DNA of 45,930 bases from a virus. The notes under the pieces were generated by a model. The model had not been told where the DNA came from, ran no database searches, and saw only the letters and a list, made by a program, of their open reading frames with translations. The DNA lies in the IMG/VR virus record IMGVR_UViG_3300009158_000071, positions 1 through 45,930 of that record; one strand, written 5' to 3'. Position 1 is the stretch's first letter. Each line of letters starts with the position of its first letter. Shown here piece after piece: positions 6,701 to 44,880 of the stretch. Position numbers and translations under genes: made by a program.

Positions 6701-7772
6701 GTTGATTACAAATGACCTGACTGTGACTACTAATTTAACTGTAACCACTGGATTAACTTCTGTATTAGACACTGAAATTACCGGAGTAGTTACGCTTACT
6801 GGAAACATTAATCAAACAGGCGGAAATGATATTATCGGAATGTTTGCTAATAATAATATCAGTATTACTAGTACAAATTCGTACCTTGATATTCCTAACA
6901 TTAGGATTCTGCATAATGTATTATCGGTTACTGCTGTAAATACTGATTTAATCCTAACTGCAAATGGCACTGGCGGAATTGGCTTAGATCAATACTTAAA
7001 AATTGCCGATACTATAATAAGTAATAATCGAATAGGCGCAACATCTGATTTACAAAAAAGTATTAAATTTTCCCCGAATGGTACAGGTAATGTTGTAGTT
7101 AGTACAACAAAAGCACTTGAGCTACCTAACGGAAGCAACACAACTCGCACATTTTCTGCAATTGGTGAAATTAGATATAACACTGTTTCGAACTTAGTCG
7201 AAGGGTGGCAGCCGTCTGGGTATGTTAACTTTGCAAACTTATGGGATAGCGATAGGAACACTTACATTACCGCCGAACTAACTCCCGGTGCAGCAGATAG
7301 CACTCTTAGATTTAGTATTAATAGTGCCGTTAGTGCAACTATTTCAGATACTGCACTTACAACAAATTCTTTACTTATTGACAATGTTAAAATTTTAGGA
7401 AACGCTATTAGCAACAACATTGCATCTACTAATCTCAACATTTTACCAACCTCGGGATTGACTAATTTCAAAAACAGTATTCATGTTACTAACAACACTA
7501 TCGAAACAGTTAGTGCAGGTCCTATTACCCTTTTATCAACTGGCTTTGGATATGTTAAATTTTCAGGAAATAAAGCAGTTATAATCCCGCACGGTGGTCC
7601 ATTAGATAGACGTAACACTCCGGAACTAGGAGAGACCCGATACAATACTGACGCTGGCGAACTTGAAATTTATGATGGATATGCATGGGTGTCTGCAGTA
7701 GGATCAGGCGGCTTTGCTAGTCCTGCAGAAATCGATGATATTATGAACGTATGGTCCTTCATCCTTGGATAA
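3720..7772 (+). CDS. Giant modular fibre protein 1 (beta-helix plus GTG-IYVP repeats)
   Basis: The 1350-residue product opens with a cap, MGRVSGPLLSENLLRNGENL, that is near-identical in the paralogue at 7894. From about residue 230, IYVSVNGNDTNYG, IKQALTVAQPGDEVVIFPGT and FPLTVPQGVSVRGMD form the start of a right-handed beta-helix of the DUF1565/pectin-lyase type. A 'YY..MDHKGDYRIGDIFLVD' module follows near 645. Residues about 800-1110 hold repeats of the form 'N.DL.L.A.GTG.IYVP..NV.I.NNLTV' (near 818, 907, 973 and 1074) joined by 'TGNINQTG'. The C-terminus has two 'LPNG/IPHGG...GE.RYNT....E' hairpins. It is likely a trimeric fibre or spike subunit. There are no endoglycosidase residues I can identify. 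Confidence 0.8.
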   Translation: MGIEMGRVSGPLLSENLLRNGENLAFDTDLLYIDVVNGKVGVKSDSPTRELFAKNSIGTTNLIVDTQMDVGNFSIFDSKIQQLTGAIYFQPNQSTDPIIQTPDLSTANIRIRVGQIIENVVDNTGINLSPIGTGQVSVTSNSLEIFGNLHSNGNITADGNIILGTGTADTVIFNSDITSNIIPDVNDTYDLGSPSKIWQTLYTENVVSDAITTTDFNTSIDLLLVAGNTIYVSVNGNDTNYGNHLHSTYRTIKQALTVAQPGDEVVIFPGTYSEIFPLTVPQGVSVRGMDVRNVIVTPTSSTNTNNAFLLNGETTVSFITVKDFFAPGNGFSFANNFTVTTRSPYVQNVTVITKTAAIQTQVNQNLSGTSSPTGFFYYGWQILNPGQTVPTFSVIQPGWTVAGQPTWVVTTVGNGITNYDITITGGLFASGGTYSFISPLTGAGNGALVDGSLANSASIQATMLFHAVTMIVPDAIGIQASNGARVEWLNSFTYFANKGIYLTDGTNGFAGIRNTAAGYDNIVGFYGQSGILLTGANAKTVTVNVSVSGVITIVSVSAGAASGIFTSAGGTRWIINLGKFGAEMRSINSANVYGTYGAVADGASTLGYLIGHNFGYIGTGADSQNDYGLVNQANEIVATNGAALYYDSMDHKGDYRIGDIFLVDQDTGSVTFNAQSINFTANGNITFEGPTGSTIINAQSITTGNIRIHDNNLDSLSGPINFLAASNTTRLNTNVFVTGIIDISADTNVKGNVFLGNDPLDLLTVAPQLTQTIPPNTTDTYTLGTVDKTWKTAKITTLTIDNVTQITNNTATTLTSNTDLRLVAAGTGRLYVPLTNVEADNNFTVNSPISILDLGINGNVIITGDINQTGDRLITGYGVFENITTHVGTMQFGDIFIENNIFSTVVTNQNLEISANGTGRIYVPYKNVKINNNLTVSSDSYFTTTNVTTTATANEFFTGDISIDNNVITTTLTNQDLSLKAALTGKIYVPSNNVLITNDLTVTTNLTVTTGLTSVLDTEITGVVTLTGNINQTGGNDIIGMFANNNISITSTNSYLDIPNIRILHNVLSVTAVNTDLILTANGTGGIGLDQYLKIADTIISNNRIGATSDLQKSIKFSPNGTGNVVVSTTKALELPNGSNTTRTFSAIGEIRYNTVSNLVEGWQPSGYVNFANLWDSDRNTYITAELTPGAADSTLRFSINSAVSATISDTALTTNSLLIDNVKILGNAISNNIASTNLNILPTSGLTNFKNSIHVTNNTIETVSAGPITLLSTGFGYVKFSGNKAVIIPHGGPLDRRNTPELGETRYNTDAGELEIYDGYAWVSAVGSGGFASPAEIDDIMNVWSFILG

Positions 7773-7784
7773 TTAACCAAAACC

Positions 7785-7792
7785 GCTAAATA
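7785..7792 (+). promoter_or_regulatory. Late promoter GCTAAATA
   Basis: The CTAAATA core matches the late promoter form reported for T4-like cyanophages and resembles T4 TATAAATA. It lies in the 121-base gap after the 1350-aa gene and about 100 bases before the ATG at 7894. Confidence 0.65.
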
Positions 7793-7893
7793 CATGTACT
7801 GCTAGAACAAGACCAAAGTTCTACGAGACGAAACTGTGGTAAACCCGCAATGTAAGGTGGTTAGCCGTGAAACGCGGTGGTTAAGGAGAGAGT
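7793..7893 (+). other. Leader of giant fibre gene 2 with inverted and direct repeats
   Basis: TAGAAC (7803-7808) can pair with GTTCTA (7818-7823). Further on, GGTGGTTA occurs twice, 20 bases apart (7856-7863 and 7876-7883), the second running into the AAGGAG ribosome site at 7883-7888. No ORF of note and no tRNA fold were seen. It may be an mRNA leader structure; no known riboswitch was recognised. Confidence 0.35.
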
Positions 7894-10800
7894 ATGGCAG
7901 TTGGTCGAATTTCAGGTCCACTCTTAAAGGCAAACCTTCTTCGCGACGGTGTAAATTTAGCCTTTGAGACCGACTTATTATATTTAGATGTTATAAATGG
8001 CCGAGTTGGTATCAAAACAACTAGTCCGTCTCATGACTTAACCGTAAATGGTACTACCCGTACCCCCTTACTTGAAGCTACAACTCAAGCAAATATTGCA
8101 ACATTTACAATTACTGGGAATACAATTTCCAGTTACAGTGACACTATTACCTTACAACCAAGTGGAGTAAATCCAGTAGTTTATCAAGGTAAAATTAGTG
8201 TTGGCAATTTACAAATTTCAACAAACTTAATTGAAACTACTGGAACTAATACTGATTTAAACATTTACACTACCGGTACTGGTAAAGTTAATGTTAATTC
8301 AAATATGTTAGTCACTGGTAATATTCATGCAACTGGTAATATTACTGCAGACGGTGATATTGTTATCGGTGATGCAAATACCGACAGCATTACGTTTAAT
8401 GCCGACATTGCTAGTAATATTCTTCCTAACCAAACAAACTTTTATGATTTAGGTAGTAATCCTTCTACTGGCGGACAAGCATGGAGAACGTCGTATATAA
8501 ATGACGTTCAAACCTCTACTATTACTACAACTGCAATTACTGCAAATGGAATTAATTTAATTCTTCCGCAGGGAAATACTATATATGTTGCAAAAAATGG
8601 TAATGATTTAAATGCAGGACAACATGAAAATAATCCGGTTCTAACTATCAAACAAGCGTTATCTTTAGCAACTTTGGGTACAACTGTTTATATTTTTGCT
8701 GGAACTTACACTGAAATATTCCCGTTAACTGTGCCAGTAGGAGTATCAGTTAAAGGCACCGGAATCCGAGCTGTTAATATCCAACCTACCGCAGGAACAC
8801 TTGACAAAGATGCATTCTTAGTCAACGGCGAAACTACTATTGAAGATATTGCAGTAAGTGGATTTAGATTTAATCCAATTAATAATACTGGGTATGCGTT
8901 TAGATTTGCTAGCAATTTTACTGTTACTACACGTAGTCCGTATATTAGAAATATTACTGTTATAACAAGAGGTACACCTACTAGTCTTTCTGTTAATAGT
9001 TTTAAAACACAAAATAATGCAAGTTTAGCACGCATTAAAGACATTATTGACGAATTAGTCGTTAATACAACAATTACACCATCAACAGGAAATTCTACTT
9101 CACAAATTAAAGATGTTGCACATCCTAGTAATGGCGCTACTGGAATTTTGCTTCAAGGTTTATTTGATAATGTTATTTCAATTATTGATAATGGTGCAGC
9201 TATTTCTACACTACCTGCAATTACTGCAAATGGGTCGTTAACTGCTGATTCAAATAAATTAAATGCTGCTGCATTAGTTGCATTAAACATTGCTTTCTTA
9301 AAAGCAGAAATGGTTGCATACTTGGCAACAACTTATGCTGGATTTTGGGGGACTAATTCTCAAACAAAAGCAGAAAGAGACCTGGGTTACATATTAGATG
9401 CAATACAATACGATATTACACACGGCGGGAACGAACGTACTGTAACTGTCGGTATTAGTTATTGGCAAAATCCTACAAGCGATCCTTATGGATTTGACAG
9501 CAACGATGCAGGTAAAGGCGCATTAATTGACGGCAGTGTTGCTAATGCAACCAGTAAAGAAGCAACTATGTTGTTTCACAGCGTTACATTTATTACACCT
9601 AATCAAGAAACTATTTCTGCAACAAACGGTGTTCGTATTGAGTGGTTAAACTCGTTTACTTACTTTGCAGACAAAGGCTTGTACGCATATAGCAGCAGTG
9701 CAGGTTTTGCAAGTGCAGGTTTAACACGACTAAGAATTAACAACAAAACAGGTACATGGGCAGTTGGCAACACAATTTCTTATTACGATACTGATAATAC
9801 AACTGTTTTAGGTACAGGAACCATTGCAAGTATTGCTGGAAACTTTGTAAATTTAACTGGACGTTGCCTTGGATTTGAAACAATTACAGATAGAACTCCT
9901 ACTACTCTGTATACCCAAGGCGGTGCAAAATTATCAACCGCTATTAAAAAATTCGGAACTGCAAGTCTAGCATTAGACGGAGTAGGTGATTATGTTACCC
10001 ATCCAAGTGCTCCAGACTTTGCGTTTGGGACTGATCCGTTCTGTGTTGAGATGTGGGTTTATCGAACAGGCGGCAGCGGTGCTATTCAAATACTAGCAGA
10101 TTTCCGTTCAGCAACACCCCAATTTGTTCCTACATTATTTTTAAGTGCCACAACTTACTACCCGTCGTTAGTTGTTAACGGTGCTACTGTAATTATTGGA
10201 ACCACTACTGTTCCGTTGAATACTTGGACACATATTGCCGTTGCTAAGAGTGGATCAAGTACGAAGATTTTTATAAACGGTAGCCAAACAGGTACTACTT
10301 ATACTGACAACAACACATACATCCAAGGCCCGTTGACAATTGGCGCACGGTTTGATGGCACTACTCCGTTCTATGGCAATATTGATGATATAAGAATCAG
10401 TAAAGGTGTTGCACGATATACAACAACATTTACTGTACCTGCAGCAGCATTAACTGGCGATTTAAATACTGTTTTACTTCTGCATTTTGATGGTGAAAAT
10501 AATTCAACTATAATCTTTGACGACGGTATTACCTTACAAGATATTCGAAATATTACCACAGGCGGATCTGCAAGTGTTATCAACTTTGCTGATTACAGTG
10601 ACTTTGGTGCAGAAATACGTGCGATTGGTTCGGCTAATATCTACGGTAACTATGGAGCATATGGCGACGGTGTGGGTGTTATTGCATATCTCATCAGTCA
10701 AAATTTTGCCTATGTCGGATCAGGAAAACTTTCAACTAATGATCCGACCGATAAAATTGCTGCACAAGAAGTAGTTAAATTAAATGGTGCAAAAATTTAT

Positions 10801-32129: not shown

Positions 32130-33041
32130 ATGGCAAGATCTAATACTTTGCCGCAGACGATGTCAATATCTGCGGCAACGACCCTTTCGTATGCGTTTGG
32201 CGGCGGCATAATATCATTAATAGGAACTACTGGCTATACAGTTACCCTTGTTGCACCTGCATCAGGGCCCGGAATACCTCAAACATTTTATAATAGCACC
32301 GGCGGATCGGTCACCTTAGCTACACCTGCAGGAAATATTGTAGGAAGCGGGCTAACAAGTGCAAGTTCGCAATTGATACCAAATAATACAACTTTTACCC
32401 TAACTTCTGATAGCGTAAACTATGTATTAGCTAACAACGAAGGTGGTGCAATTGCAGCAACTAGTGGAACATTTACTGGAACAGTATCGTTAAGTCCGGC
32501 AAATGCAAACATAACAGCAAGTCCAACTGGCTCAGGCACTGTTACTATTAATCCTGCTACTACTGGCAGTATTAATAATATGAATGTCGGTGCAACAACA
32601 CGTGGTACAGGTGCATTTACTACATTAGGTGCGACCGGGGCACTAACCTTTGATACTGGAACAAATAACCAAAGTATTACTACTACTGGCTCGGGCACGA
32701 TAACAATTACGTCGGGCACTGCTGGCAGTATTAATAATATGAATGTCGGTGCAACAACACGTGGTACAGGTGCATTTACTACATTAGGTGCGAACTCGAC
32801 AGTTACATTAAATAATATTTCAATTGCAGCAAGCACTGCTACACTTACTACTACCTCCGGAGCACTGACCTTAAGTTCGTCATCGGGCGGTATTACTGTA
32901 TCTACATCAATGGCGTTAGGTACAAATCAAATTTCATCATCATATACTCCGTCGTCGAGTAATGATTTAACTAATAAAACGTATGTTGATAGTAAAACAA
33001 GCCGCACGTCAGGTAACGCATATTTTCTAGGAACAGCATAA
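32130..33041 (+). CDS. Short tail fibre-like protein with INNMNVGATT repeats
   Basis: The 303-residue product has a beta-rich head (TGYTVTLVAPASGPGIPQTF...NSTGGSVTLATPAGN) followed by a stem with two copies of GSINNMNVGATTRGTGAFTT. This is the widespread phage fibre repeat 'inn..IGat.p.tgaFTtL'. A further strand repeat (TLTTTSGALTLSSSSGGITV) and an SSNDLTNKTYVDSKT element close the protein; 'NDLTNKtYVD' usually precedes a receptor-binding tip or chaperone domain in longer fibres, so this one ends early, with only about 15 residues after it. The two stem repeats are identical at DNA level. Probably a short fibre or fibre stub. Confidence 0.75.
   Translation: MARSNTLPQTMSISAATTLSYAFGGGIISLIGTTGYTVTLVAPASGPGIPQTFYNSTGGSVTLATPAGNIVGSGLTSASSQLIPNNTTFTLTSDSVNYVLANNEGGAIAATSGTFTGTVSLSPANANITASPTGSGTVTINPATTGSINNMNVGATTRGTGAFTTLGATGALTFDTGTNNQSITTTGSGTITITSGTAGSINNMNVGATTRGTGAFTTLGANSTVTLNNISIAASTATLTTTSGALTLSSSSGGITVSTSMALGTNQISSSYTPSSSNDLTNKTYVDSKTSRTSGNAYFLGTA
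32563..32793 (+). repeat. Perfect 72-bp direct repeat within a fibre gene
   Basis: Bases 32563-32634 and 32722-32793 are identical over 72 bp, 159 bp (53 codons) apart and in frame. The flanks differ. The identity, including third codon positions, points to a recent duplication or gene conversion in the fibre stem. Confidence 0.95.
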
Positions 33042-33758: not shown

Positions 33759-34502
33759 ATGGCCGGAATTCAACTAATTTATGATACTACATGTACATCG
33801 ACTTCTGGTGTGGGATGCTCTTGGACCGTTCCAGCAGGAACACGTAATGTAGTTTTTGAGATATGGGGCGGGGGCGGGGGTGGGGGCACTACCGGAACAA
33901 ATTGCGACTGCTGTTCGAGAGGCGGACCAGGTGCAGGCGGTGGGTATTCTAAAGTTTCAATTGCAACAACTCCTGGCACTGTGTATTCAATGTGTGCAGG
34001 TCCAGGTGGTATATCATCACAAGGATACGGGTCGTACTGCGGCATCTGCTGCGACGGTTGTGTCGGTGGAACTACATATATAACAGGTGCCGGATTATCA
34101 AATTTCTGCGCAACAGGCGGGTATGGCGGCACCAGTGATTTTAATACTAACTGTTATGCGCATTGCGGGTGTAACTTTTATTCTAGATCTGGCGGCCAGG
34201 GTTACGGCGGCGACGTTATCGCTAAAGGTGGTTGGGGAGTTATGGGAAGCTACTCCGGTACATCTCCCTATCACATTGATATACACGCTGGTTCAGCAGC
34301 AGGTCCAGGTGGTGGAGTCGGCGGCGTACAAATCGGCGGCGGGCTTTGCAACAATTCTTGGTATGCAGCTTCAGGTGAAGATCCTATGCATGGTCGCATA
34401 CCGGGCGGTGGTGGATCAGGGAATGGCAGTTATTCATGTTGTTGCTGTGCTGCTTTATTTTCAGGCCGCGGTGCTCCTGGCGCAATTAAAATTTATTATT
34501 AA
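33759..34502 (+). CDS. Glycine/cysteine-rich putative adhesin A
   Basis: The 247-residue product opens with a short head and CSWTVPAGTRNVVFEIWGGG, the start of the phage glycine-rich fibre-tip domain ('tWtvPaGvt.v.vevWGgGGgG'). Poly-Gly segments (GGGGGGG, GAGGGYSK, CAGPGG, GGVGGVQIGGG, PGGGGSGNGS) alternate with Cys clusters (CDCC, CGICCDGC, SCCCC); I count 19 Cys. It ends GRGAPGAIKIYY, matching the usual 'GapGlv.i.(y/f)' end. Gly-rich tips of this kind, such as gp38 adhesins of T2/S16-type phages, bind outer-membrane receptors. The abundance of Cys is unusual for a phage virion protein. It is paralogous to the products at 35023 and 36162, and is followed after 11 bases by its own small partner. 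Confidence 0.78.
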   Translation: MAGIQLIYDTTCTSTSGVGCSWTVPAGTRNVVFEIWGGGGGGGTTGTNCDCCSRGGPGAGGGYSKVSIATTPGTVYSMCAGPGGISSQGYGSYCGICCDGCVGGTTYITGAGLSNFCATGGYGGTSDFNTNCYAHCGCNFYSRSGGQGYGGDVIAKGGWGVMGSYSGTSPYHIDIHAGSAAGPGGGVGGVQIGGGLCNNSWYAASGEDPMHGRIPGGGGSGNGSYSCCCCAALFSGRGAPGAIKIYY

Positions 34503-34513
34503 TCGGTGAATAT

Positions 34514-35023
34514 ATGACAATAACACATAAAATCTTACTTAACAAGGATACTGGTAAAGTTGTTCAGCCGGTTTACTTAGTAGAAAACGAAAGACCAGAA
34601 CCTCCTGACTGTATTTGGCATTTTATCGAAGCCGGAACATGGCTGCATGATCATTTTTGTTGTGATCCTCCTATAGATATTAGCCACATTGATATTGAAG
34701 AAGCATATTTTGATTTTGAAAGTAACACATGGAACGAAGTACCATCATCGTCGGTACCTTCATTTTCAAAAACAAAATTTAACAGAAATGAACTGTTAAA
34801 ACAAACCGATCGAACAATTTCGGCGCTTACTGACATTGATAAAATTAACAGTTGGGCATTATATAGACAGCAGTTAAGGAATATGTTTGTCGGAGTACCT
34901 GAAGATGTTGATTGGAACATGATTGTATTTCCTAGAAACCCAGATGACATTGCAGTTTTAAAGAAATTAGCAGCAGCCGGTGACGCCGACGCTGCTGCTA
35001 TAATAAAAAAGGATAAATTATAA
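34514..35023 (+). CDS. Putative tail-fibre assembly chaperone A
   Basis: The 169-residue protein has an N-terminal part with AYFDFESNTWNEVP near residue 63 and a C-terminal part NRNELLKQTDRTISALTDID followed by WALYRQQLRNM and FPRNPDD. That C-terminal layout ('R...L..TD......YR..LR.......WP..P') is typical of the phage tail assembly chaperone family (Phage_tail_APC-like). Such proteins help fold or attach the fibre tip encoded just upstream. The stop overlaps the next start (TAATG at 35021-35025), which suggests translational coupling to adhesin B. Residues beyond FPRNP form an extra Ala/Asp-rich helix absent from its two counterparts. Confidence 0.7.
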   Translation: MTITHKILLNKDTGKVVQPVYLVENERPEPPDCIWHFIEAGTWLHDHFCCDPPIDISHIDIEEAYFDFESNTWNEVPSSSVPSFSKTKFNRNELLKQTDRTISALTDIDKINSWALYRQQLRNMFVGVPEDVDWNMIVFPRNPDDIAVLKKLAAAGDADAAAIIKKDKL

Positions 35024-35706
35024 TGGGAAGATACATTCAAAGTCCTGCAATTCTACTAGCGCCTCGATGTATACTTGAAGTTGTTGGCGGTAATTCATGC
35101 ATTTGGACCGTTCCATCGGGTATAACAAACGTTTCATTCGAATTATGGGGCGGCGGCGGGGCCGGTGGCCCAAAATGCTGCTGTTATTGCCAGTCAACAA
35201 ATGGCGGCCACGGCGGCGGGTATTCGTTAAAAACAATATCAACCTCATCCGGAACAGTTTTTTGTATTTGTGCAGGACCTGGCGGAGCAAGGTTTTATTG
35301 TGCATCATCTGCAACTGGTTGCGCTGGTGCTACTTCATATGTCACCGGCACCGGATTATCTAATTTATGTGCCGTCGGCGGTGGCGGCGGGGCCTCCGGT
35401 ACTTTTTATTGCTATTATGTGTGTACTTGCTGTGGAGGCGCAGCATATGGCGGTGACATTAACATGCAAAGCGGCCGCACGTGGAATAAAAATCGGGGTG
35501 GCTGTAATTATATGGCTGCAGGTGGTCCCTCACCGTTTGGTGGTGGTGAATCTTATTTACACTACCAGCAATGCTGTCCGTACATGTCTTGCGGGTACGA
35601 CGGGGTTTACCCCGGTGGAGGTGGTACGGGAATAGTTAATTGTTGCTGTGATTGCTGCGGCTGCAACGGAGCAGGAGCCCCTGGCTTAGTGAGGATAACA
35701 TTCTAA
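35023..35706 (+). CDS. Glycine/cysteine-rich putative adhesin B
   Basis: The second copy of the Gly/Cys-rich family has 227 residues, of which I count 25 Cys. The head MGRYIQSPA is shared with adhesin C (MGRYIDSAS). CIWTVPSGITNVSFELWGGG, then KCCCYC, GGHGGGYSLKTI, ICAGPGG, TSYVTGTGLSNLCAVGGGGG, YGGD and PGGGG follow in the same order as in A and C. Near the C-terminus CCCDCCGC precedes GAGAPGLVRITF. The loops between these anchors differ strongly in length and sequence among the three copies, as expected for receptor-facing loops on a constant scaffold. GGAT lies eight bases upstream of the ATG. Confidence 0.78.
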   Translation: MGRYIQSPAILLAPRCILEVVGGNSCIWTVPSGITNVSFELWGGGGAGGPKCCCYCQSTNGGHGGGYSLKTISTSSGTVFCICAGPGGARFYCASSATGCAGATSYVTGTGLSNLCAVGGGGGASGTFYCYYVCTCCGGAAYGGDINMQSGRTWNKNRGGCNYMAAGGPSPFGGGESYLHYQQCCPYMSCGYDGVYPGGGGTGIVNCCCDCCGCNGAGAPGLVRITF

Positions 35707-36161: not shown

Positions 36162-36869
36162 ATGGGAAGATATATAGATTCTGCATCTAGGCAGTTTTCA
36201 ATTGGTGCGCGAACACTAGATGTGCTTACTACTTGTACATGGACTGCTCCGTCCGGAGTATGTCGCGTTACTTTTGAAGTGTGGGGTGGCGGCGGCGGCG
36301 GCGGCGCTCACTGTTGCTGTGATTGTTATAGGGAAGGTACTTCGGGTGCAGGCGGTGGATATTCGAGTAAAACAGTAGTGACTTTGCCTGGATGTGCGTA
36401 TGTTGTATGCGCGGGATATGGCGGCATGGTAACTTCTGTAGGCAACTGTACGCTTCATTGGAATTGCTGCGGCCAACAAGGTGGTACATCTTACGTAACC
36501 GGCTTTGGATTATCAAATTTCTGCGCAACAGGCGGTGACGGCGGCCAGAATACATGTTATTGGGCCTGCGGCTGCACAAACTACTCGGGAATTGGATATG
36601 GCGGTGATCAAGCTAATGGTTGTATATGTGGCTCACCTGGTTTTACAGGCGGTGACACTGGCGCAAACATGTGTGTTTTTAACGGCGCCGGTGGAGCACC
36701 ATTTACCAGTTCTAATCAATTTGCAGTGTTTGATGCTTGTTGTAGATGTATGTTAGGCACGCCAGGCATTTATCCAGGGGGCGGCGGTACAACTGCGTTA
36801 TCAAGCTATAGTTGTTGCTGTTCTCAAGCAGGTGTCGGTGCAAACGGATTAGTACGAATTAACTTTTAA
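36162..36869 (+). CDS. Glycine/cysteine-rich putative adhesin C
   Basis: The third copy has 235 residues, of which I count 24 Cys. The anchors are in order: CTWTAPSGVCRVTFEVWGGG, HCCCDC, GAGGGYSSKTV, VCAGYGG, TSYVTGFGLSNFCATGGDGG, YGGD, PGGGG, SCCCS and GANGLVRINF. The poly-Gly run after the W is encoded by repeated GGC codons, so this gene is more G+C-rich than its neighbours and produces long false ORFs in other frames. It is preceded by AAGGA. Role as for copies A and B: a likely fibre-tip adhesin. The three may be alternative tips or co-exist on one virion; the sequence does not decide this. Confidence 0.78.
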   Translation: MGRYIDSASRQFSIGARTLDVLTTCTWTAPSGVCRVTFEVWGGGGGGGAHCCCDCYREGTSGAGGGYSSKTVVTLPGCAYVVCAGYGGMVTSVGNCTLHWNCCGQQGGTSYVTGFGLSNFCATGGDGGQNTCYWACGCTNYSGIGYGGDQANGCICGSPGFTGGDTGANMCVFNGAGGAPFTSSNQFAVFDACCRCMLGTPGIYPGGGGTTALSSYSCCCSQAGVGANGLVRINF

Positions 36870-36877
36870 GGATCGAA

Positions 36878-37348
36878 ATGACAGAATATGCAATTTATAT
36901 TAAAAAAGAAAATGGTATCCCGTTAAATGGGTTGTGCTTTATTGGAAGCGATGCACAGAGTGCATCGCTAGTAGTTCCACTTGACTGCGAGGTATTACGG
37001 TTTGATGAGTCTCATAAAGATTTTGATTTATTATACTCTATAATAGTAACAACTAATCCTATTTATAAACTGCCATGCAATGGCGGAATAGTGGTTAATT
37101 TTGAAACAGGTGACCTGACATTTGTTAAAGAAACTCCGCCGGATTTATTTGACGTTGTACGAGCATACCGAAATACCCTACTTGCCGACACTGATTATTT
37201 AGTGCAAGTTCCTGACTATCCAGGAACTTTACTTGATCAAATTCTTGAGTATCGATCTGCATTGCGAGATATACCAAATCTAATAATCAAAAACAACTGG
37301 CAAACTCCGGAAGACGTAGTTTGGCCTACTCGGCCAGACCACATTTAG
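36878..37348 (+). CDS. Putative tail-fibre assembly chaperone C
   Basis: The 156-residue protein has the clearest chaperone-like C-terminus of the three: VRAYRNTLLADTDYLVQVPD, then ILEYRSALRDIPN, then WQTPEDVVWPTRPDHI. This matches the Phage_tail_APC pattern 'R..RN.LLa.tDw...D....YR.aLRdip....p...vvWP..P'. An upstream VVNFETGDLTFV corresponds to the YFDFET element of copies A and B. AAGGA lies five bases before the ATG. Its 3' end overlaps by 23 bases the end of the convergent HAD-like gene. A hairpin inside that gene may end its transcript. Confidence 0.74.
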   Translation: MTEYAIYIKKENGIPLNGLCFIGSDAQSASLVVPLDCEVLRFDESHKDFDLLYSIIVTTNPIYKLPCNGGIVVNFETGDLTFVKETPPDLFDVVRAYRNTLLADTDYLVQVPDYPGTLLDQILEYRSALRDIPNLIIKNNWQTPEDVVWPTRPDHI

Positions 37349-37865
37349 ATACATACGCCGACAACGATTCGAAGTGGTCCCATTTTGACGGACCACTTCC
37401 GATTTTGATAGGACATGCCGATACCTTTTCTGCTGCATGTAAATCATTGTCCGACGTGCTTATTACTGGAACACTATTCCAATTAGTGTAGTGATGCTCA
37501 GTTACTCGATGAAACATTCCGGGATTAGGAGTTACGAACGGGTCCGACGATGATATAGCCGGGCACCAGTATATTCCTAATATAGTAACCCCACGATTTT
37601 TTAAATGTGATTCAATTGATACGATCATTGACTGAAACGACTCTGTTGAAAGTTGTTTTGACTTGAATTGGTTTACAAATAACACAATTTCAAAATTATT
37701 TTTTGAAAGTAATTTTAACCCATCGATCGCAGATTCTAAAAAATTTAAATTTCCTACGTATACGTTACTTGATTTTTTGTCAATCAATGTGTTAAATGGA
37801 AAAATTCCAATTATTTTTTTTTGATTGAGATTTATTTGATCTAATAAATTTTTATATCTATTCAT
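37326..37865 (-). CDS. HAD-family (GmhB/HisB-N-like) protein lacking catalytic residues
   Basis: The 179-residue protein follows the layout of D-glycero-heptose-1,7-bisphosphate phosphatase (GmhB) and histidinol-phosphatase: FLESAIDGLKLLSKNNFEIV, a VNQ motif (64-66), NRGVTILGIYWCP, TPNPGMF (112-118) and a late 'STSDNDLHAAEKV' segment. However, motif I DxDGT is replaced by FPFNT (22-26), so both catalytic Asp are Phe. The motif II Thr is Val64, the motif III Lys is Thr112, and the first motif IV Asp is Thr137. The zinc-loop CxH...CxC is reduced to one Cys101. The frame is intact with AAAGGA before the ATG, so it is probably a maintained non-catalytic protein rather than debris. It overlaps the end of chaperone C by 23 bases. 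A different function cannot be excluded. Confidence 0.68.
   Translation of the reverse strand: MNRYKNLLDQINLNQKKIIGIFPFNTLIDKKSSNVYVGNLNFLESAIDGLKLLSKNNFEIVLFVNQFKSKQLSTESFQSMIVSIESHLKNRGVTILGIYWCPAISSSDPFVTPNPGMFHRVTEHHYTNWNSVPVISTSDNDLHAAEKVSACPIKIGSGPSKWDHFESLSAYVSKCGLAE
37371..37407 (+). terminator. Possible terminator hairpin for the adhesin operon, inside the convergent HAD-like gene
   Basis: A perfect 10-bp inverted repeat GAAGTGGTCC / GGACCACTTC (37371-37380, 37390-37399) with a 9-base loop is followed on the plus strand by CGATTTTG. It lies 23 bases after the stop of chaperone C but within the coding sequence of the minus-strand gene. The T-run is short and offset, so efficiency is uncertain. 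Confidence 0.5.
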
Positions 37866-37926
37866 ACTTTATCCTTTTTTATAATTATCAGCAAATCATA
37901 ACTAGCAGGGCAATCTTGATTAAATG

Positions 37927-37934
37927 CGTAAATA
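37927..37934 (+). promoter_or_regulatory. Late promoter CGTAAATA
   Basis: The TAAATA core is at the usual place, 24 bases before the ATG at 37959, in the 93-base gap between divergent genes, with AAGAGGA as ribosome site. It implies late expression of the glycan operon. It is weaker than TATAAATA in the first two bases. Confidence 0.55.
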
Positions 37935-37958
37935 CCTGATAAACATATAAGAGGATTT

Positions 37959-38888
37959 ATGCATAAAACAGTCTTTATTAACGGAGGCGCAGGCCGCATG
38001 TTGTGCGCATTACCTGCTCTAGAGCGATTCATTACAGAAAACCCTGATAGTTACATTGTCACCGAAGGTGGCTTAGATTTTGTATGGGGGAATAAACTAC
38101 TACAAGATAGAACTTTTGATGTTAATTCAAAGGGATTATTTGAAACCATTATTAAACATGGAGATACTATTTCTCCTGAACCTTATCGCGATTATGATTA
38201 CTATAATCAACGGATCAGCATTGCCCAAGGTTTTGATAAATTGATTAACGGTAATGTTAGATTAGATCATGATTATCGTCCAAATATTGTGCTAAACAAA
38301 GAAGAAGAACTTCACGGTGTAACTGTTGTTAAACATGCAAAAGCCGAACACAAACACACTAAAACTATTATAATTCAGCCAGTCGGCCGTAGTTCGGTTA
38401 ACGATGCCGATCTCGGAGTAGTTGCTGATTACAGTACACGAAGTTTAGAAGTAAAAACATTTTTAGCAATTGCAAAAGCATTAAAGGAACATTACAATGT
38501 TATTAGCATGACAGAGTTTCCTATTCCGGGCGATGACATTACTATTAATCCTAAAGATTTGACATTACGTAAGTGGGGTGCTATAATTGACACTGCTGAT
38601 TACTTTATAGGATGTGATAGTGTTGGTCAACATTTAGCGTATGCGTTTAATAAACCAGGCACGGTTATTTTAGGAAGTACGTTTGCACAAAATGTAAGTT
38701 ATCCATCTTATTTTAATATTATAGAAAAAGAAGGATTTGAGAAACGTTATAGTCCTATTAGAATCACAGAAGCCGGCTGCTACGAAGCTGATCGGATCAA
38801 TGATCTAGCTTTAGAGTTTAATGATACCGAAACACAACAACTTATAGACAATATTTTGTCTGATATTAGAAAAAAAATTGGAGAATAA
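37959..38888 (+). CDS. Glycosyltransferase family 9-like protein (heptosyltransferase-like)
   Basis: The 309-residue protein looks like a GT-B enzyme of the GT9 class. It starts VFINGGAGRMLCALPALERF, a glycine-rich loop with the conserved 'G..GD.l...p' spacing. The C-terminal domain has IIQPVGRSS (nucleotide-sugar side), then IIDTADYFIGCDSVGQHLAY around Asp220 and KPGTVILGST; 'D.fiG.DSg..HlA.a...p.v.lfG' is the GT9 signature. GT9 enzymes move heptose or related sugars onto lipopolysaccharide; the acceptor here is unknown. It is first in a three-gene late operon with a carbamoyltransferase and a 2OG oxygenase, whose start follows two bases after this stop. It could be a distant relative with another donor sugar. 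Confidence 0.68.
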   Translation: MHKTVFINGGAGRMLCALPALERFITENPDSYIVTEGGLDFVWGNKLLQDRTFDVNSKGLFETIIKHGDTISPEPYRDYDYYNQRISIAQGFDKLINGNVRLDHDYRPNIVLNKEEELHGVTVVKHAKAEHKHTKTIIIQPVGRSSVNDADLGVVADYSTRSLEVKTFLAIAKALKEHYNVISMTEFPIPGDDITINPKDLTLRKWGAIIDTADYFIGCDSVGQHLAYAFNKPGTVILGSTFAQNVSYPSYFNIIEKEGFEKRYSPIRITEAGCYEADRINDLALEFNDTETQQLIDNILSDIRKKIGE

Positions 38889-38889
38889 A

Positions 38890-40659
38890 ATGACACAATG
38901 GATCGCAGGAATTACCCGTGGGCATAATGGCGCAACGTGTTTATTAAAAGATGGTGAATTAGTTTTCTACATCGAAGAAGAAAGATTAAGTAGAAAAAAA
39001 TACGACGGTGGTCCGTTAGCTGGTATGCTTAAAATAAAAGAATACACTGATAAAATCGACTACTTAGTAGTTGCACATACTCAGCCGTTGTCACAAGCAG
39101 GTAAGATTGACTTTACTGGCGACGATATGTACACTGGGTTTGCGAGAAAAATTGGACTTATTGATAACAAATTTCACGGTGAAACTCACCCACAAGTCAT
39201 TGATCTCGGAATGATTCATCATGAGTTACATGCTGCGTGTGCATTTTACAATAGCGGCTTCGATGAAGCCGCTGTCTTAATTGTTGACGGTGCTGGTACA
39301 TTTATACCGCTAGGTGAAAACGGGACTATTGGGTGGGAATTAGAATCAATATTTAGTGCATCTTATCCTGCAAATTTTCCTACAAAATTTAAACATATCG
39401 GAGTTCGGGGCCCCGAACTTACCTTTGCAAAATACCAAGTCCCGCACGACAACAGAGGAAAACCAGAAGATTTGCACGATGTTATATTTTCAGATCACCC
39501 TGGAATAACTAAATGTTACGAAGCAATGACACATTATTGTGGATTTAATTTCATCGAAGCAGGCAAAGCTATGGGGTTAGCCCCATATGGTAAGCCAAAT
39601 TTAGAAATCCCTAAGATCTTTTTAGGAAAATCAGGTAAGTTCCTTAGTGATCGTAACGTAGTAGTTCCGAATTATCCAAATGGGGCATTCTTTGATCTCG
39701 TCGGAAATGAGGTCCTTAATACGGATAGTTTTGAAATTAAAAAAGACCTTGCGTATGCAGTTCAAACTGAAACTGAACAGCAAATGGTTAGATTAATTTT
39801 AGATGCAATCGAACGAACTGGGTTAACTAATATTTGTATCGCAGGCGGGTATGGATTAAACTGTGTTGCAAATTACGAATATCTTAAATATTTACCCGAC
39901 GGTGTTAACCTTTATATTGAACCAATTAGCCACGACGGCGGAACTTGCATAGGTGCTGCTAAAATTATTCATCATCAAGAGAATGATGATTATACTATAA
40001 GAAAACAAGAACATATTTACTACGGTATTAACTATTTTGAGCAAAACGGTTCGTACGATATTAAATTAGAAACCGATGAAACAATAACAGATGCATCTGC
40101 AGATGATATTGTTTCGTTATTAACTAGTGGAAACATCGTGTGCATGTATCAAGGCGGGTCCGAGGCAGGCCCTCGGGCATTAGGGAATCGATCTATCTTG
40201 TTTGATCCTAGGGTAAAAGACGGTAAAGATATTGTCAATAGTGTTAAACATCGTGAATGGTTTAGACCGTTTGCTGGTACTATTTTAGAAGAACACGTAC
40301 ACGATTGGTTTGACTTACGAGGTATGAGCACCTCCCAATACATGATGTATGCAGTTAATTGTAAAGATGGTGTTGCTGAAAAAATCCCAAGTATTATTCA
40401 TGTTGACAACACTTGTCGTATTCAAACAGTTTCAGTTGAACAAAACGCACATTACTATAATTTAATTAGCAAGTTCTATGCAGCAACTAATATTCCAATT
40501 TTATTCAACACTAGTTTTAACTTAGGGGGCGAACCTTTAGTTGAAACAATTGATGATGCATTATATACGTTAAGGAACAGCGGGTTAGATTATTTGTTTT
40601 TGCCAGAACTTAATAAGTTAATTCATGTTCCGCATAATTTACAAGAGGAGGACGACTAA
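38890..40659 (+). CDS. NodU/TobZ-type carbamoyltransferase
   Basis: The 589-residue product has both domains of the O-carbamoyltransferase family (NodU, CmcH, TobZ), which transfer a carbamoyl group from carbamoyl phosphate via carbamoyl-AMP to a hydroxyl of a sugar or antibiotic. The N-terminal Kae1-like domain starts GITRGHNGATCLLKDGELVF and EEERLSRKK, with the metal-binding segment IHHELHAACAFYNSGFDEAA (His110, His111, His114) and DGAGT. Later IAGGYGLNCVANYEY occurs. The C-terminal YrdC-like domain has GGSEAGPRALGNRSIL (from 422), RPFAGTILEEH and FNTSFNLGGEPLVET (from 539). Length is normal for the family. The start is the ATG at 38890 with GGAGA upstream; an in-frame TTG at 38878 would overlap the previous gene. 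It appears catalytically complete. Confidence 0.93.
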   Translation: MTQWIAGITRGHNGATCLLKDGELVFYIEEERLSRKKYDGGPLAGMLKIKEYTDKIDYLVVAHTQPLSQAGKIDFTGDDMYTGFARKIGLIDNKFHGETHPQVIDLGMIHHELHAACAFYNSGFDEAAVLIVDGAGTFIPLGENGTIGWELESIFSASYPANFPTKFKHIGVRGPELTFAKYQVPHDNRGKPEDLHDVIFSDHPGITKCYEAMTHYCGFNFIEAGKAMGLAPYGKPNLEIPKIFLGKSGKFLSDRNVVVPNYPNGAFFDLVGNEVLNTDSFEIKKDLAYAVQTETEQQMVRLILDAIERTGLTNICIAGGYGLNCVANYEYLKYLPDGVNLYIEPISHDGGTCIGAAKIIHHQENDDYTIRKQEHIYYGINYFEQNGSYDIKLETDETITDASADDIVSLLTSGNIVCMYQGGSEAGPRALGNRSILFDPRVKDGKDIVNSVKHREWFRPFAGTILEEHVHDWFDLRGMSTSQYMMYAVNCKDGVAEKIPSIIHVDNTCRIQTVSVEQNAHYYNLISKFYAATNIPILFNTSFNLGGEPLVETIDDALYTLRNSGLDYLFLPELNKLIHVPHNLQEEDD

Positions 40660-41393
40660 TGTCAACGACTAAATGGTGGGATGGTCCCCCACCTGCAAAT
40701 AAATTTGCTCAAAAATTTAAAACACCAATTTACGTTGCAAAAGTAGGAACAATTGATTTTGTTAATGAAATAACTGATTATATTTTAAAATTAGAAAAGG
40801 ATATAATCGAAACTGAAGAATTAGTTAGCAAGGTTCCTAAGTCAACTGTTGACCCTTACCGACATACCCAACAATGGAAACAACATAACTTGTTTAACGA
40901 CGTGCCTGGCCTTGATGGTGATCACCTTCAACGATTTCCTAAGCATAGTTCGACTGGAATCATGTTTGATATTATCAGGGCATCATATCTTGAACATCTT
41001 GCTACATTAAGGTATCCAAGACCAAAAGTATATATACACGGATGGGCAAACGTATTACGAAATGGCGAATATATCAGTGAGCACTTACATTCTTCTAATT
41101 GTGAATCCTATTTATCGGGGTGTTATTATTTAACTACTAATTCTACAAATCTATATCTGCGAAGACCTGCTTCGTCCGGTGATGATGATGCAGATCAAGT
41201 TGCAATTAGCACAGAAGCCCGTAAGATGGTATTCTTTCCGAGCTGGGTACCGCACTGGAGTGATAAATGTACTGATGATAAATTACGTATTTCGGTTGCA
41301 TTTGACATCGTCTCTGAAGTTTCGATGAAAGGAAATCCGTGGCGCCCACACGTTTTACTAGATGACCCTGAGACTATGCCCGGGTTAGTATAA
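40659..41393 (+). CDS. 2-oxoglutarate/Fe(II)-dependent oxygenase
   Basis: The 244-residue protein belongs to the putative 2OG-Fe(II) oxygenase family common in marine phages. The double-stranded beta-helix core includes WANVLRNGEYISEHLHSSNC (His142-x-His144 as likely iron-binding region), ESYLSGCYYLTTNSTNLYLR, MVFFPSWVPHWSDKC with the distal His199, and LRISVAFDI with Arg210 placed to bind 2-oxoglutarate. These enzymes hydroxylate proteins, sugars or small molecules; the substrate here is unknown. The ATG overlaps the carbamoyltransferase stop (TAATG) and a strong AGAGGAGG site precedes it, so the two are translationally coupled. This suggests they act on the same product, for example hydroxylation followed by O-carbamoylation. 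Confidence 0.85.
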   Translation: MSTTKWWDGPPPANKFAQKFKTPIYVAKVGTIDFVNEITDYILKLEKDIIETEELVSKVPKSTVDPYRHTQQWKQHNLFNDVPGLDGDHLQRFPKHSSTGIMFDIIRASYLEHLATLRYPRPKVYIHGWANVLRNGEYISEHLHSSNCESYLSGCYYLTTNSTNLYLRRPASSGDDDADQVAISTEARKMVFFPSWVPHWSDKCTDDKLRISVAFDIVSEVSMKGNPWRPHVLLDDPETMPGLV

Positions 41394-41414: not shown

Positions 41415-41864
41415 TTATAAAATATCAATAATTTCGATAACAGTTTGGATCTTAGTTTGTATAATTTTATTACGCAAGCTAAGATCTAAACCTCGATGTA
41501 CAGGTTTAGGTAAACTTTTTAAAGTAAACCATCCCCACGCAACGTGTTCATCACTTAACTTTGGTATAAATTCATCTTGAATTAAACAAAAATATGTATG
41601 AAAATTAAAGACACTATCATTAGAAACAAACTTTTCTAGGGGTAGTGTTTTTTTAATGATTGGTAAAAATCCAATTTCTTCCTCTATCTCACGAGTAAGA
41701 CCTTGCCATGGATTTTCATTTATTAAATTTGTTCCACCTACTAATCCCCAAGTACCTTGATGTTTACCTGAGGATTTTTGTATTAGCAAAACTCGATGTG
41801 TGTTCTGTGCGTAGATTAATGCTCCGCTACAGATAATTTTATCTTTTATAGTTCTATTTTCCAT
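41415..41864 (-). CDS. Nudix hydrolase
   Basis: The 149-residue protein has a complete Nudix box from Gly44 to Phe66 fitting GX5EX7REUXEEXGU: Glu50 is followed by REIEEEIGF (58-66), which holds the metal-binding glutamates. Upstream, GALIYAQNTHRVLLIQKSSG and GTWGLVGG are typical substrate-side strands. The family hydrolyses nucleoside diphosphates linked to another moiety; a GDP-mannose-type (WGLVGG..) or general house-cleaning substrate is possible. The start overlaps the end of the gp15-like gene by 19 bases, so it is the last gene of the minus-strand neck operon. It converges with the 2OG oxygenase gene 21 bases away; no terminator was seen between them. Confidence 0.88.
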   Translation of the reverse strand: MENRTIKDKIICSGALIYAQNTHRVLLIQKSSGKHQGTWGLVGGTNLINENPWQGLTREIEEEIGFLPIIKKTLPLEKFVSNDSVFNFHTYFCLIQDEFIPKLSDEHVAWGWFTLKSLPKPVHRGLDLSLRNKIIQTKIQTVIEIIDIL

Positions 41865-43321
41865 AGGCCGGCTTTGTATACACCTTCGAATGATTTAACC
41901 CATGAAACACCGTTCCATAAGTATTGGACTCCTGTATATATATTTGTTTGCCAAACCATGGTATCACGTTCTTGGTTACTATCAAATATAACGTTCCATC
42001 TAGAGCCTGTCCATTCAATAATATCGTTAGCACGCGCAATCAGGTCAACACTACTTGTTGATTTCCATGCATCTGCACCATCTTCGTTTTGAATTGCACC
42101 TATGTCTTCGATAACGATTAATCTAAGTTTAACAGGAATATTTTCAATACCGTTGTATTCTACTAGTGGATTAAATGTTTGTGGATTAACAATTGCATCA
42201 ACTTTACTTCTTGCAGATGATTGATCAAACCCTTCGTCAGTGTTAAATAACCCGTTACTATCGATTAATGAATCAAACTGCAATGTCAATGGATCCCATA
42301 CTACATTTAAAATTACAGGATTCTCAGAGTCTATATCAATTGTACCAACGATTTCACTACCATCGTCCTGACTTAAAAATAATCTACTTACGCCAGCAAT
42401 AAATTCAGCACCGTATGCAGCAAAAATGTCAGTCCAGTTTATAGGATGACCTTGTTTTATCGGTATTTCAATTACCGGTTCTGCTGGCACAACATTTTCC
42501 GAAGGTCCTAGTAAAATAACTTGGCTGTCGTAAACTTGAATATTAAATCTTGTAATAGTTGTTCTAATTTTTGTTAGTAATTCTGCAAGCGACGGTGTAG
42601 GTTCAGCAGTGTCGACACCCAGTCCTTCAACATAACCTGTTTTATTGTAATCGTTTTGTCCCCAAATGCCTGTGATAATATTTGTAATTACGCCAAGTTG
42701 TTTAACTTTAACGGGTGGACTTATCCATATAGGAGTGTCTAAGGTTATAGTTGCAATATCGATAGGGCTATCAGTGCCTACTGGCACTTGTCTACTTGAC
42801 CAGTTTACGTCGTTTAAGTATAATACGCTTAAACTTGTCCAATCGAGATAGTTCTCATTAGTTTGCAACTCTAAACTTGGATTAAAAAACATTAAAATTT
42901 GTTCTAATAACTGTAATTTTTGATCAGTATTTGCTGACCAAATATCAACTTTTAATGCAAGTTTAAACGGAGTTGGCATTAATCGTTCAACAGTGTAATT
43001 ACGACCGTTAGTATTATTATACTCACCGGTTATAGGATCAATACCTCTTTCTCGCAAATGCATTTTTCCAACAAAGGTTGCATCAGCCAATCTATCTTTA
43101 TCAAGTGATAAGCTACTAATGTATACACTTATTCTTGGCACACTGTTAATTTTATTTTCAGAATTTTGTCGCATAATAGTTGCAGCTTGTCTATCCGCAT
43201 CACCGTATAAAACAGGAACCCTGACTAGAGTACCATCGCCATATCTTACAGTGAAGTTACTTAAAATACGAATTGTTTGGGTAAGATATCGTCTTATTTG
43301 TCCATCATAAAAGTGCATCAT
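41846..43321 (-). CDS. gp15: Tail sheath stabiliser / tail terminator, gp15-like, with long C-terminal extension
   Basis: The N-terminal ~240 residues match T4 gp15, the hexameric cap that closes the tail: HFYDGQIRRYLTQTIRILSN (T4: FYNSSFRRYATLMGDLFSN), TLVRVPVLYG, SVPRISVYISSL, TPFKLALKVDIWSANTDQKL, EQILMFFNPSLEL and TPIWISPPVKV. T4 gp15 is about 272 residues, this one 491. The extra C-terminal part includes SARSKVDAIVNPQTFNPLVE, VKLRLIVIEDIG and a tryptophan-rich end (IIEWTGSRWNV, WQTNIYTGVQYLWNGVSWVK, AGLWKIEL). Two adjacent ATG codons open the frame, two bases after the gp14 stop. It acts at the head-tail junction together with gp13 and gp14. Confidence 0.85.
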   Translation of the reverse strand: MMHFYDGQIRRYLTQTIRILSNFTVRYGDGTLVRVPVLYGDADRQAATIMRQNSENKINSVPRISVYISSLSLDKDRLADATFVGKMHLRERGIDPITGEYNNTNGRNYTVERLMPTPFKLALKVDIWSANTDQKLQLLEQILMFFNPSLELQTNENYLDWTSLSVLYLNDVNWSSRQVPVGTDSPIDIATITLDTPIWISPPVKVKQLGVITNIITGIWGQNDYNKTGYVEGLGVDTAEPTPSLAELLTKIRTTITRFNIQVYDSQVILLGPSENVVPAEPVIEIPIKQGHPINWTDIFAAYGAEFIAGVSRLFLSQDDGSEIVGTIDIDSENPVILNVVWDPLTLQFDSLIDSNGLFNTDEGFDQSSARSKVDAIVNPQTFNPLVEYNGIENIPVKLRLIVIEDIGAIQNEDGADAWKSTSSVDLIARANDIIEWTGSRWNVIFDSNQERDTMVWQTNIYTGVQYLWNGVSWVKSFEGVYKAGLWKIEL

Positions 43322-43323
43322 AA

Positions 43324-44880
43324 TTATAGGTCCGCCCTTGGTTTAAGTGCTTTTGAAAGACTTTGTCTTTGCAATTCACGCGAGTCGCATAATTCAATTT
43401 TCCATGTACCGTAATAGGGAATGTCATGTCCTTCGGGTAGGGTTATTCTTACTTTTTCGACTGCATCAACAGTGTATGCTGTAATAATTCCCGGATAATC
43501 TGCAACAGTAAACGGTAATTGATACGGAATAACTTCTGCAGAATGCAAGGTTAATATTAGATAATTTACATTTACAAAATTAATCTGTGTATCGATAGCA
43601 AAATCACCAACCTCTAAAGTTGCATATTCTGTTGCGATTGCATGTTGATAGGTATAATCAATGTTATTAACAAAACTTGTTTTTAATGTTTGTCTCGTAT
43701 CTGTTTGAGTCATTGGCATTCGAACTGCATCTTCGGTGCGTAACCATTTTGTGCCGTCGAATCTAAATAATCTATTTGGTAAGAAATCGTTGCGTAAATA
43801 GAAATCGTCTTTTGCGGGATTAGTTGGAAATTGTATTCCGTGTCCAAACACGTATCCATTAACTGGATAACCGTCTCCGACTAAGTAACCAGTATAACCA
43901 GTGCGCAATGGTACTGCATTATTACTACTTGCAAGAATATTATCACCTTCAAAACTAGCATCGATTTCATAAGTGTCAGCTCGGTTTAATATAACACTGC
44001 CGTCATTGGGATCAGCAGATAATGTATAAAATTGTCGAGTTTCGTAGCCACTCAACGGCGCGTCATTTTCAGACTGTGCAATAACAGCATCGTTAATTTG
44101 ATATTCTATTGCTCGAGTGCTTAGAATATTTTCAAGCGTATTTCCGATAAATGGTGCAAAGTATTGTGAATTGGGCGGCTCATTATTTGTAGTGCTTGCA
44201 GTAACGTTGAATAATAATCCATTACGTCTAACAATTTCACCGGGTTGGTAAGTTGTTGCAGCATCGTAATCGCCAACAAATACATCGGCATCTTCGCCTA
44301 CTGGTTTAGTAAGCACGTCGGCAAATTGTTGACTATCTGTGATTTTTTTAATTTTTAATCTATATAGATGTGGAAACCATGTTGCGCTAAAACCTTCGCT
44401 AGCACGACCTACATCTTCTATAACATAATATCGCGGCAGACTTACATCAAAATCATTAAGAGCAAAATCATCTCGTAGGTGTGGCATTTCCATTACATCA
44501 CCACATAATGGTTTGCGTCCAAGGAACTTAATAAAATCGTTGATATGTACTGTCATAAAAATCGTGTCGTTGTCAATGAATAAACCAAATTGACTTAAAT
44601 TGAAATCGATGTTTTGCACATTGTAGATTCCTCGGATCCTGTAAATCTCCGGATCGTACTTTCTATCACGATTTTCTAAAAACAGCAAATCTTGTATATT
44701 AGTTTCTTTTACTGCATCATAAACTGGTTGATCAGCAGTGCCCTCGTCCTGTATTTTAGGACCAAGGTATTTGTGAACATATACATCAGTGCCGCCGACT
44801 TGAAACATCTGCGAGATATGGTGATCAATAAATCTATAATTATTACCTTTCTCAGGTTTATATAAGCTTAATTTGGGCAA
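43324..44880 (-). CDS. gp14: Neck protein, gp14-like, with long C-terminal extension
   Basis: The 518-residue product has a gp14-like N-terminal ~190 residues: GGTDVYVHKYLGP (T4 gp14 has GVECYYVPRE there), FNLSQFGLFIDNDTIFMTVH, IKFLGRKPLCGDVMEMP and YVIEDVGRASEG. T4 gp14, which joins head and tail with gp13, is about 256 residues. The extension contains a chitin-binding-like unit (DYDAATTYQPGEIVRRNGLL), then a PTNPAKDDFYLRNDFLPNRL plus FRFDGTKWLR block, and ends with YYGTWKIELCD, echoing the AGLWKIEL end of gp15. The frame has no ATG in place; it starts at TTG (44878-44880) with GGAG seven bases upstream. It is first gene of the operon gp14-gp15-Nudix. Confidence 0.83.
   Translation of the reverse strand: MPKLSLYKPEKGNNYRFIDHHISQMFQVGGTDVYVHKYLGPKIQDEGTADQPVYDAVKETNIQDLLFLENRDRKYDPEIYRIRGIYNVQNIDFNLSQFGLFIDNDTIFMTVHINDFIKFLGRKPLCGDVMEMPHLRDDFALNDFDVSLPRYYVIEDVGRASEGFSATWFPHLYRLKIKKITDSQQFADVLTKPVGEDADVFVGDYDAATTYQPGEIVRRNGLLFNVTASTTNNEPPNSQYFAPFIGNTLENILSTRAIEYQINDAVIAQSENDAPLSGYETRQFYTLSADPNDGSVILNRADTYEIDASFEGDNILASSNNAVPLRTGYTGYLVGDGYPVNGYVFGHGIQFPTNPAKDDFYLRNDFLPNRLFRFDGTKWLRTEDAVRMPMTQTDTRQTLKTSFVNNIDYTYQHAIATEYATLEVGDFAIDTQINFVNVNYLILTLHSAEVIPYQLPFTVADYPGIITAYTVDAVEKVRITLPEGHDIPYYGTWKIELCDSRELQRQSLSKALKPRADL

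Follow-up and report, generated by a model that had tools for sequence, protein, structure and literature searches.

Carbamoylation of heptose is known from the lipopolysaccharide (LPS) of Pseudomonas, where WapO carbamoylates the core heptose (PMC8005017); carbamoyl-heptose is thus real chemistry. In the WapO system an O-carbamoyltransferase works on heptose together with heptosyltransferases, as we propose for a gene cassette at positions 37326–41393 of the IMG/VR virus record IMGVR_UViG_3300009158_000071. The two differ in that the WapO system is a bacterial LPS pathway acting on lipid A-core, and a 2-oxoglutarate (2OG) oxygenase is not reported in its unit. The record is a 45.9-kb fragment (45,930 nucleotides, called the window below). 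A GT-B/GT9-like fold, like that of the phage glycosyltransferase, is found in TibC/BAHT (PMC4358343). TibC is a dodecamer with catalytic Asp110 that heptosylates a bacterial adhesin protein, whereas in the phage family Arg13 appears to stand near the place of this Asp.

Among phages, the T4-GC 302/303 loci of cyanophages (P-SSM2 PSSM2_307/308, S-SSM7, S-CAM1 and S-CAM3) hold the glycosyltransferase–carbamoyltransferase pair of the window in identical order. In these loci the pair is followed by genes for heptose kinase, nucleotidyltransferase, isomerase, cupin and epimerase, whereas the window has a coupled 2OG oxygenase and a catalytically dead HAD protein. In the cluster of the jumbo cyanophage S-SSM6a a carbamoyltransferase, a 2OG oxygenase, a cupin and a HAD protein occur together, along with a halogenase and a methylase, and its authors read it as capsule decoration or secondary metabolism (PMC7824862); published readings of such clusters are capsule or LPS decoration or secondary metabolism. 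The initial annotation of this DNA, which regarded the combination as undescribed, is contradicted by these loci. The window is a trimmed version of a known cyanophage locus; in it, the oxygenase is coupled into the operon and the neighbouring HAD protein is dead.

Enzymes and organization of the cassette

The four open reading frames (ORFs) placed here by the initial annotation are all present:

37959..38888, + strand: GT9-fold glycosyltransferase, phrog_8954 (PHROG 8954, E=4e-90; predicted fold; IMG/VR relatives)
38878..40659, + strand: NodU/TobZ-type O-carbamoyltransferase, two domains (likely start ATG 38890; longest frame from TTG 38878)
40659..41393, + strand: 2OG-Fe(II) oxygenase, PF13759 type (47.5 bits against a cut-off of 27)
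37326..37865, − strand: GmhB-related HAD protein without catalytic residues (N-terminus MNRY)
37925..37936, + strand: late-promoter-like core GCGTAAATACC, ~30 bases 5' of the glycosyltransferase start (weak alone)

The glycosyltransferase scores 15.4 bits against the Pfam GT9 family (PF01075), below the cut-off of 22; its annotation as a GT9-like enzyme is nevertheless borne out by PHROG 8954 and by the fold. The AlphaFold2 (AF2) model (predicted local distance difference test, pLDDT, 92) matches the GT9 fold over the whole chain (3tov, Z 21.8, root-mean-square deviation 3.4, 275 aligned), with further scores of 20.7 for TibC, 19.5 for WaaF and 18.4 for WaaC and of ~11 for unrelated folds. TibC is the top Foldseek match (E 9e-10), tied with other GT9 proteins, and is only 12–14% identical to the phage family. 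The IMG/VR relatives are 37–77% identical, and the residues G9, G10, G12 and R13, E74-P75-Y76 and D220-S221..G223-Q224-H225 are invariant in the family. Arg13, invariant in 38/38 sequences, lies near the position of the catalytic Asp of TibC and of WaaC (Asp13 in the latter), as judged by motif and aligned start and not residue by residue; the equivalence is only a lead, since it is based on motif and aligned ends. The sugar donor is probably nucleotide-heptose-like.

The carbamoyltransferase is complete, as annotated initially: both Carbam_trans Pfam domains score far above the cut-off, the family motifs are conserved in the window and in relatives, and the protein matches solved enzymes including GdmN and TobZ. 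By family it is an O-carbamoyltransferase of the sugar/natural-product type and not a pyrimidine-synthesis gene. The carbamoyltransferase of cyanophage S-SZBM1 has been described as the latter (PMC9146016); this reading is mistaken if that protein belongs to the NodU/TobZ family. The third enzyme was likewise recognized correctly as a 2OG-Fe(II) oxygenase, given its PF13759 score and the residues H142, H144, H199 and R210, which are invariant in 14 sequences; its solved homologues are 3bvc and 2rg4. Very probably the cassette attaches a sugar and then a carbamoyl tag, so that the glycan carbamoylation proposed initially is supported as a prediction from sequence.

The three genes form one tightly coupled operon, as claimed: the stop of the glycosyltransferase at 38888 leaves a 1-base gap if the carbamoyltransferase begins at ATG 38890, and the carbamoyltransferase/oxygenase junction is a TAATG overlap. 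The late-type promoter suggested before it is plausible, judging from the motif and its position. A TAAATA core (within GCGTAAATACC) lies at −30 of the operon, and this position is kept in relatives, in which TAAATA is the most frequent of 15 words of equal composition between −48 and −19 (26/62). The signal is weak in the window itself, where the full TATAAATA is depleted (3 observed against 8.4 expected) and does not occur upstream of 37959.

The cassette in other phages

Relatives of the glycosyltransferase were taken from IMG/VR (121 confirmed, 80 kept), and the distribution described here is based on 86 loci whose ORFs were clustered. The carbamoyltransferase stands beside the glycosyltransferase in 78/86 loci, at a median of 3 bases downstream. 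In the cultured cyanophages P-SSM2, S-SSM7, S-CAM1 and S-CAM3 the pair is found 3' of fibre or Gly-rich genes, and in the last three of these 5' of neck genes. The position among virion genes pointed out by the initial annotation, which had proposed looking for the same genes beside fibre genes elsewhere, is therefore conserved in many phages. In P-RSM4 and S-CAM8 a carbamoyltransferase is flanked by the fibre module on one side and by four 2OG oxygenases on the other. Aeromonas phage HJ05 has a lone member of the glycosyltransferase family (26% identity), which begins 12 bases downstream of a fibre-like gene and has the tail sheath on its other side, within a structural operon. Many related loci add heptose-type kinase/nucleotidyltransferase, cupin and epimerase genes.

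Loci L009–L012 contain the glycosyltransferase without the carbamoyltransferase and with a sulfotransferase (two of them also with an adenosine 5'-phosphosulfate (APS)-kinase-like gene), as if the decorating group were exchangeable. A sulfotransferase is also present in L059, L061, L063, L066, L068 and L070–L072, and several loci have an APS-kinase-like gene. The gene content suggests sulfate as an alternative or extra decoration in the sulfotransferase-bearing loci.

In this T4-like, probably jumbo phage the cassette is flanked by the fibre genes on one side and by the NUDIX/gp15-like neck operon on the other. The block 41415–44880 (NUDIX, gp15-like and virion structural protein) matches the jumbo phages PA5oct, Atu_ph07 and Phosso, and on account of this resemblance the full genome is probably several hundred kb long. 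PA5oct has the identical backbone order (fibre, NUDIX, gp15-like, virion protein) without the cassette, that is, an empty site. When phage records were searched at the nucleotide level with the cassette region as query, there was no match. A cyanophage origin of the window is unsupported, its gp15-like gene being nearest to Phosso, PA5oct and Atu_ph07; psbA is absent from 28 related contigs. A bacterial source of the glycosyltransferase was also rejected: 8 of 9 matches in metagenome-assembled genomes (MAGs) are flanked by the carbamoyltransferase and mostly by fibre genes and therefore look like binned phage DNA, and the ninth is a 28-residue match. Such cassette-bearing phage DNA (L177–L184) is binned in MAGs labelled Gammaproteobacteria, Woesearchaeota, Neomarinimicrobiota and others.

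Proposed glycan pathway and its alternatives

In the pathway that we tentatively favour, a carbamoylated heptose-like glycan is made late in infection and its acceptor is most likely a fibre or baseplate virion protein. The GT9-fold enzyme would move a sugar, most likely heptose from a nucleotide-heptose, onto a late-made acceptor; the O-carbamoyltransferase would add carbamoyl to a hydroxyl of the transferred sugar, as WapO does on the Pseudomonas core heptose; and the 2OG oxygenase would hydroxylate the acceptor or the sugar. With an acceptor in the fibre/baseplate region, the particle would bear a carbamoylated glycan. The donor, the order of the steps and the acceptor are those that we infer from the enzymes and their surroundings. 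In favour of a virion acceptor we count the fold, which is that of the adhesin-heptosylating TibC, the late-type promoter together with the structural neighbourhood, the lone glycosyltransferase in the fibre–sheath operon of HJ05, and the N-terminal motif shared by the dead HAD protein and fibre proteins (see below). Glycosylation of virions has a precedent in mycobacteriophages (Freeman 2023, as cited in PMC12619734). Similarity of the cassette tracks that of the Gly-rich adhesins beyond the backbone for the carbamoyltransferase (partial r 0.65–0.68, p 0.005–0.015, n 7–9) and more weakly for the glycosyltransferase against gp15 (p 0.066); this co-variation is exploratory and could be explained by linkage. 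Several points weigh against the proposal. Heptosyl transfer is not assured, because by motif position Arg13 replaces the catalytic Asp of WaaC and TibC; Gly-rich tips are found in only 25/86 loci, the cassette not being tied to one adhesin type; and the region is a recombination hotspot that also houses host-envelope genes (PMC7029224, PMC3037559).

A serious possibility is that the enzymes remodel a surface glycan of the host (LPS core, O-chain or capsule) during infection, so that the envelope and not the virion is decorated, either to block superinfection or to keep progeny off debris. Pelagimyophage and jumbo cyanophage clusters have been read in this way (PMC7029224, PMC7824862), carbamoyl-heptose is known in the LPS core (WapO, PMC8005017), and the hypervariable host-recognition cluster contains envelope-type glycosyltransferases (PMC7029224, PMC3037559). 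Moreover, GT9 enzymes normally make LPS core, and WaaC and WaaF are among the fold matches. The late-type promoter, the location in the virion block and the HJ05 gene inside its fibre–sheath operon fit host remodelling poorly, as does the presence of one cytosolic transferase with flippase and polymerase genes absent beside it. Heptose is, furthermore, foreign to the LPS of marine Synechococcus (PMC4515613). Synechococcus phages carry the locus and heptose genes all the same; they are thus not copying the usual host core and appear to supply their own heptose. We consider a virion target slightly likelier than a host surface glycan. The preference of the initial annotation for the virion is therefore mildly favoured, while position, on which it partly relied, is not decisive alone, because the glycosyltransferases routinely present in the hypervariable 'host recognition cluster' have been read as host O-chain modifiers (PMC7029224).

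Two further possibilities carry much less weight. It is improbable that the product of the cassette is a small metabolite, a carbamoylated sugar, and that no macromolecule is decorated. This was suggested for the S-SSM6a cluster (PMC7824862), the family members GdmN and TobZ serve antibiotic synthesis, and S-SSM7 has a nearby halogenase and a second carbamoyltransferase-like gene; halogenase, methylase and amino-acid enzymes are, however, lacking from the operon of the window, and the conserved unit consists of the glycosyltransferase and carbamoyltransferase only. Most improbable of all is modification of phage DNA, in which the carbamoyltransferase would act on 5-hydroxymethylcytosine (5hmC) and the other enzymes would also modify bases. 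A phage-type 5hmC carbamoyltransferase of the same superfamily is known (PMC8670742), and bases can be modified by 2OG oxygenases and glycosyltransferases. The validated 5hmC enzyme differs from that of the window at the diagnostic residues, with Cys/Thr at TobZ positions 421/423 (PMC8670742; mapping by motif spacing), while all 67 phage sequences in the alignment that extend over this region, that of the window included, keep Gly436 and Arg438. The validated enzyme also has a thymidylate synthase/dCMP hydroxymethylase partner; this pairing marks the DNA-type carbamoyltransferase, and the thymidylate synthase family was not found in 28 related contigs (fragments of up to 372 kb). DNA modification was set aside as unlikely on the residues and on the partner not found in these fragments.

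If the virion is indeed the acceptor, the cassette would be a widespread means for large aquatic phages to cover their host-recognition apparatus with carbamoylated heptose.

The HAD neighbour and the flanking genes

The HAD protein is homologous to the heptose-bisphosphate phosphatase GmhB (profile E 8e-23 to 4pnh) and has lost its catalytic motifs. Motif I reads FPFNT instead of DxDGT, and the others read FVTPNP and ISTSDND; both catalytic Asp, the Lys of motif III and the GD pattern of motif IV are gone (E. coli GmhB served as the yardstick of this alignment). The loss of every catalytic motif rules out a working heptose-pathway enzyme, and the "GmhB-like" protein of the initial annotation is to be corrected to a conserved pseudo-enzyme. 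It is a neighbour and not a member of the operon, because it lies on the opposite strand, ~93 bases before the operon start.

Relatives of this protein, of which a single-sequence search gave none, were found via synteny and then by family alignment. They split into active-looking proteins (LDRDG, KPN, GDK..DL) and dead ones (TLFGV type and FP[FYW] type, the latter including that of the window), and the dead proteins form one clade (support 100/99). Heptose kinase/nucleotidyltransferase genes are nearby in 22/27 loci with an active-type HAD and in 0/20 with a dead one (Fisher p 9e-9); as the dead HADs are a single clade, this contrast comes close to one evolutionary event. In a second set of loci, collected via the HAD family and overlapping the first, heptose genes stand beside 0/40 dead and 10/33 active members. 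The idea that dead-HAD phages wholly lack heptose genes is refuted by a 280-kb contig with a dead HAD (L028), whose heptose genes lie ~87 kb from the cassette; this cluster of an epimerase, a kinase, a nucleotidyltransferase and two cupins is at L097 (G010:C1:49000-63000), 5755-8528.

An N-terminal motif, M[AGSN]R[YF], is common to HADs and fibre-tip proteins of different families. It occurs near the start of 43/51 HADs, 37/229 proteins of fibre/adhesin families and 5/216 unassigned ORFs, and in 0/581 proteins of other recurrent families and 0/120 ORFs in three S-SSM7 stretches outside the cassette region. Nearly all dead members retain the form M[GSN]R[FY], which is otherwise almost confined to fibre/adhesin proteins, and 40/40 of those scored in the second locus set have the motif. 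The sharing is suggestive only, because the motif is short and family members are not independent. Conceivably, though this is rather unlikely, the dead HAD now serves as a part of the virion or of fibre assembly, in which M[GSN]R[FY] would dock on a partner shared with the fibre-tip proteins and the protein would bind the (carbamoyl-)heptose produced by the adjacent operon, or the phosphate of that sugar, coupling glycan supply to the tail tip.

The cassette is flanked by the following genes:

32130..33041, + strand: fibre-like protein, Ser+Thr 35.6%, clustering with fibre proteins of relatives
33759..34502, + strand: Cys-/Gly-rich adhesin-like tip protein (by sequence composition)
35023..35706, + strand: Cys-/Gly-rich adhesin-like tip protein (N-terminus MGRY)
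36162..36869, + strand: Cys-/Gly-rich adhesin-like tip protein (N-terminus MGRY)
36878–37348: tail-fibre-assembly protein, directly after the preceding tip protein
41415..41864, − strand: NUDIX hydrolase, backbone gene adjoining the cassette
41846..43321, − strand: T4 gp15-like tail sheath stabiliser, backbone gene

The Ser/Thr-rich fibre-like protein is, by its composition, a candidate acceptor of the glycan. A defence role of the three cassette enzymes was considered and rejected, as they gave zero PADLOC matches; the NUDIX protein matches the PADLOC candidate model PDC-S07 (E 1.8e-11), probably through the NUDIX domain only. The three tandem tip proteins contain 8–11% Cys and 22–27% Gly, the Cys content being unusually high for phage adhesins. 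Each of them is followed by a small protein of ~150–170 residues, at least one of which (36878–37348) is of the tail-fibre-assembly type.

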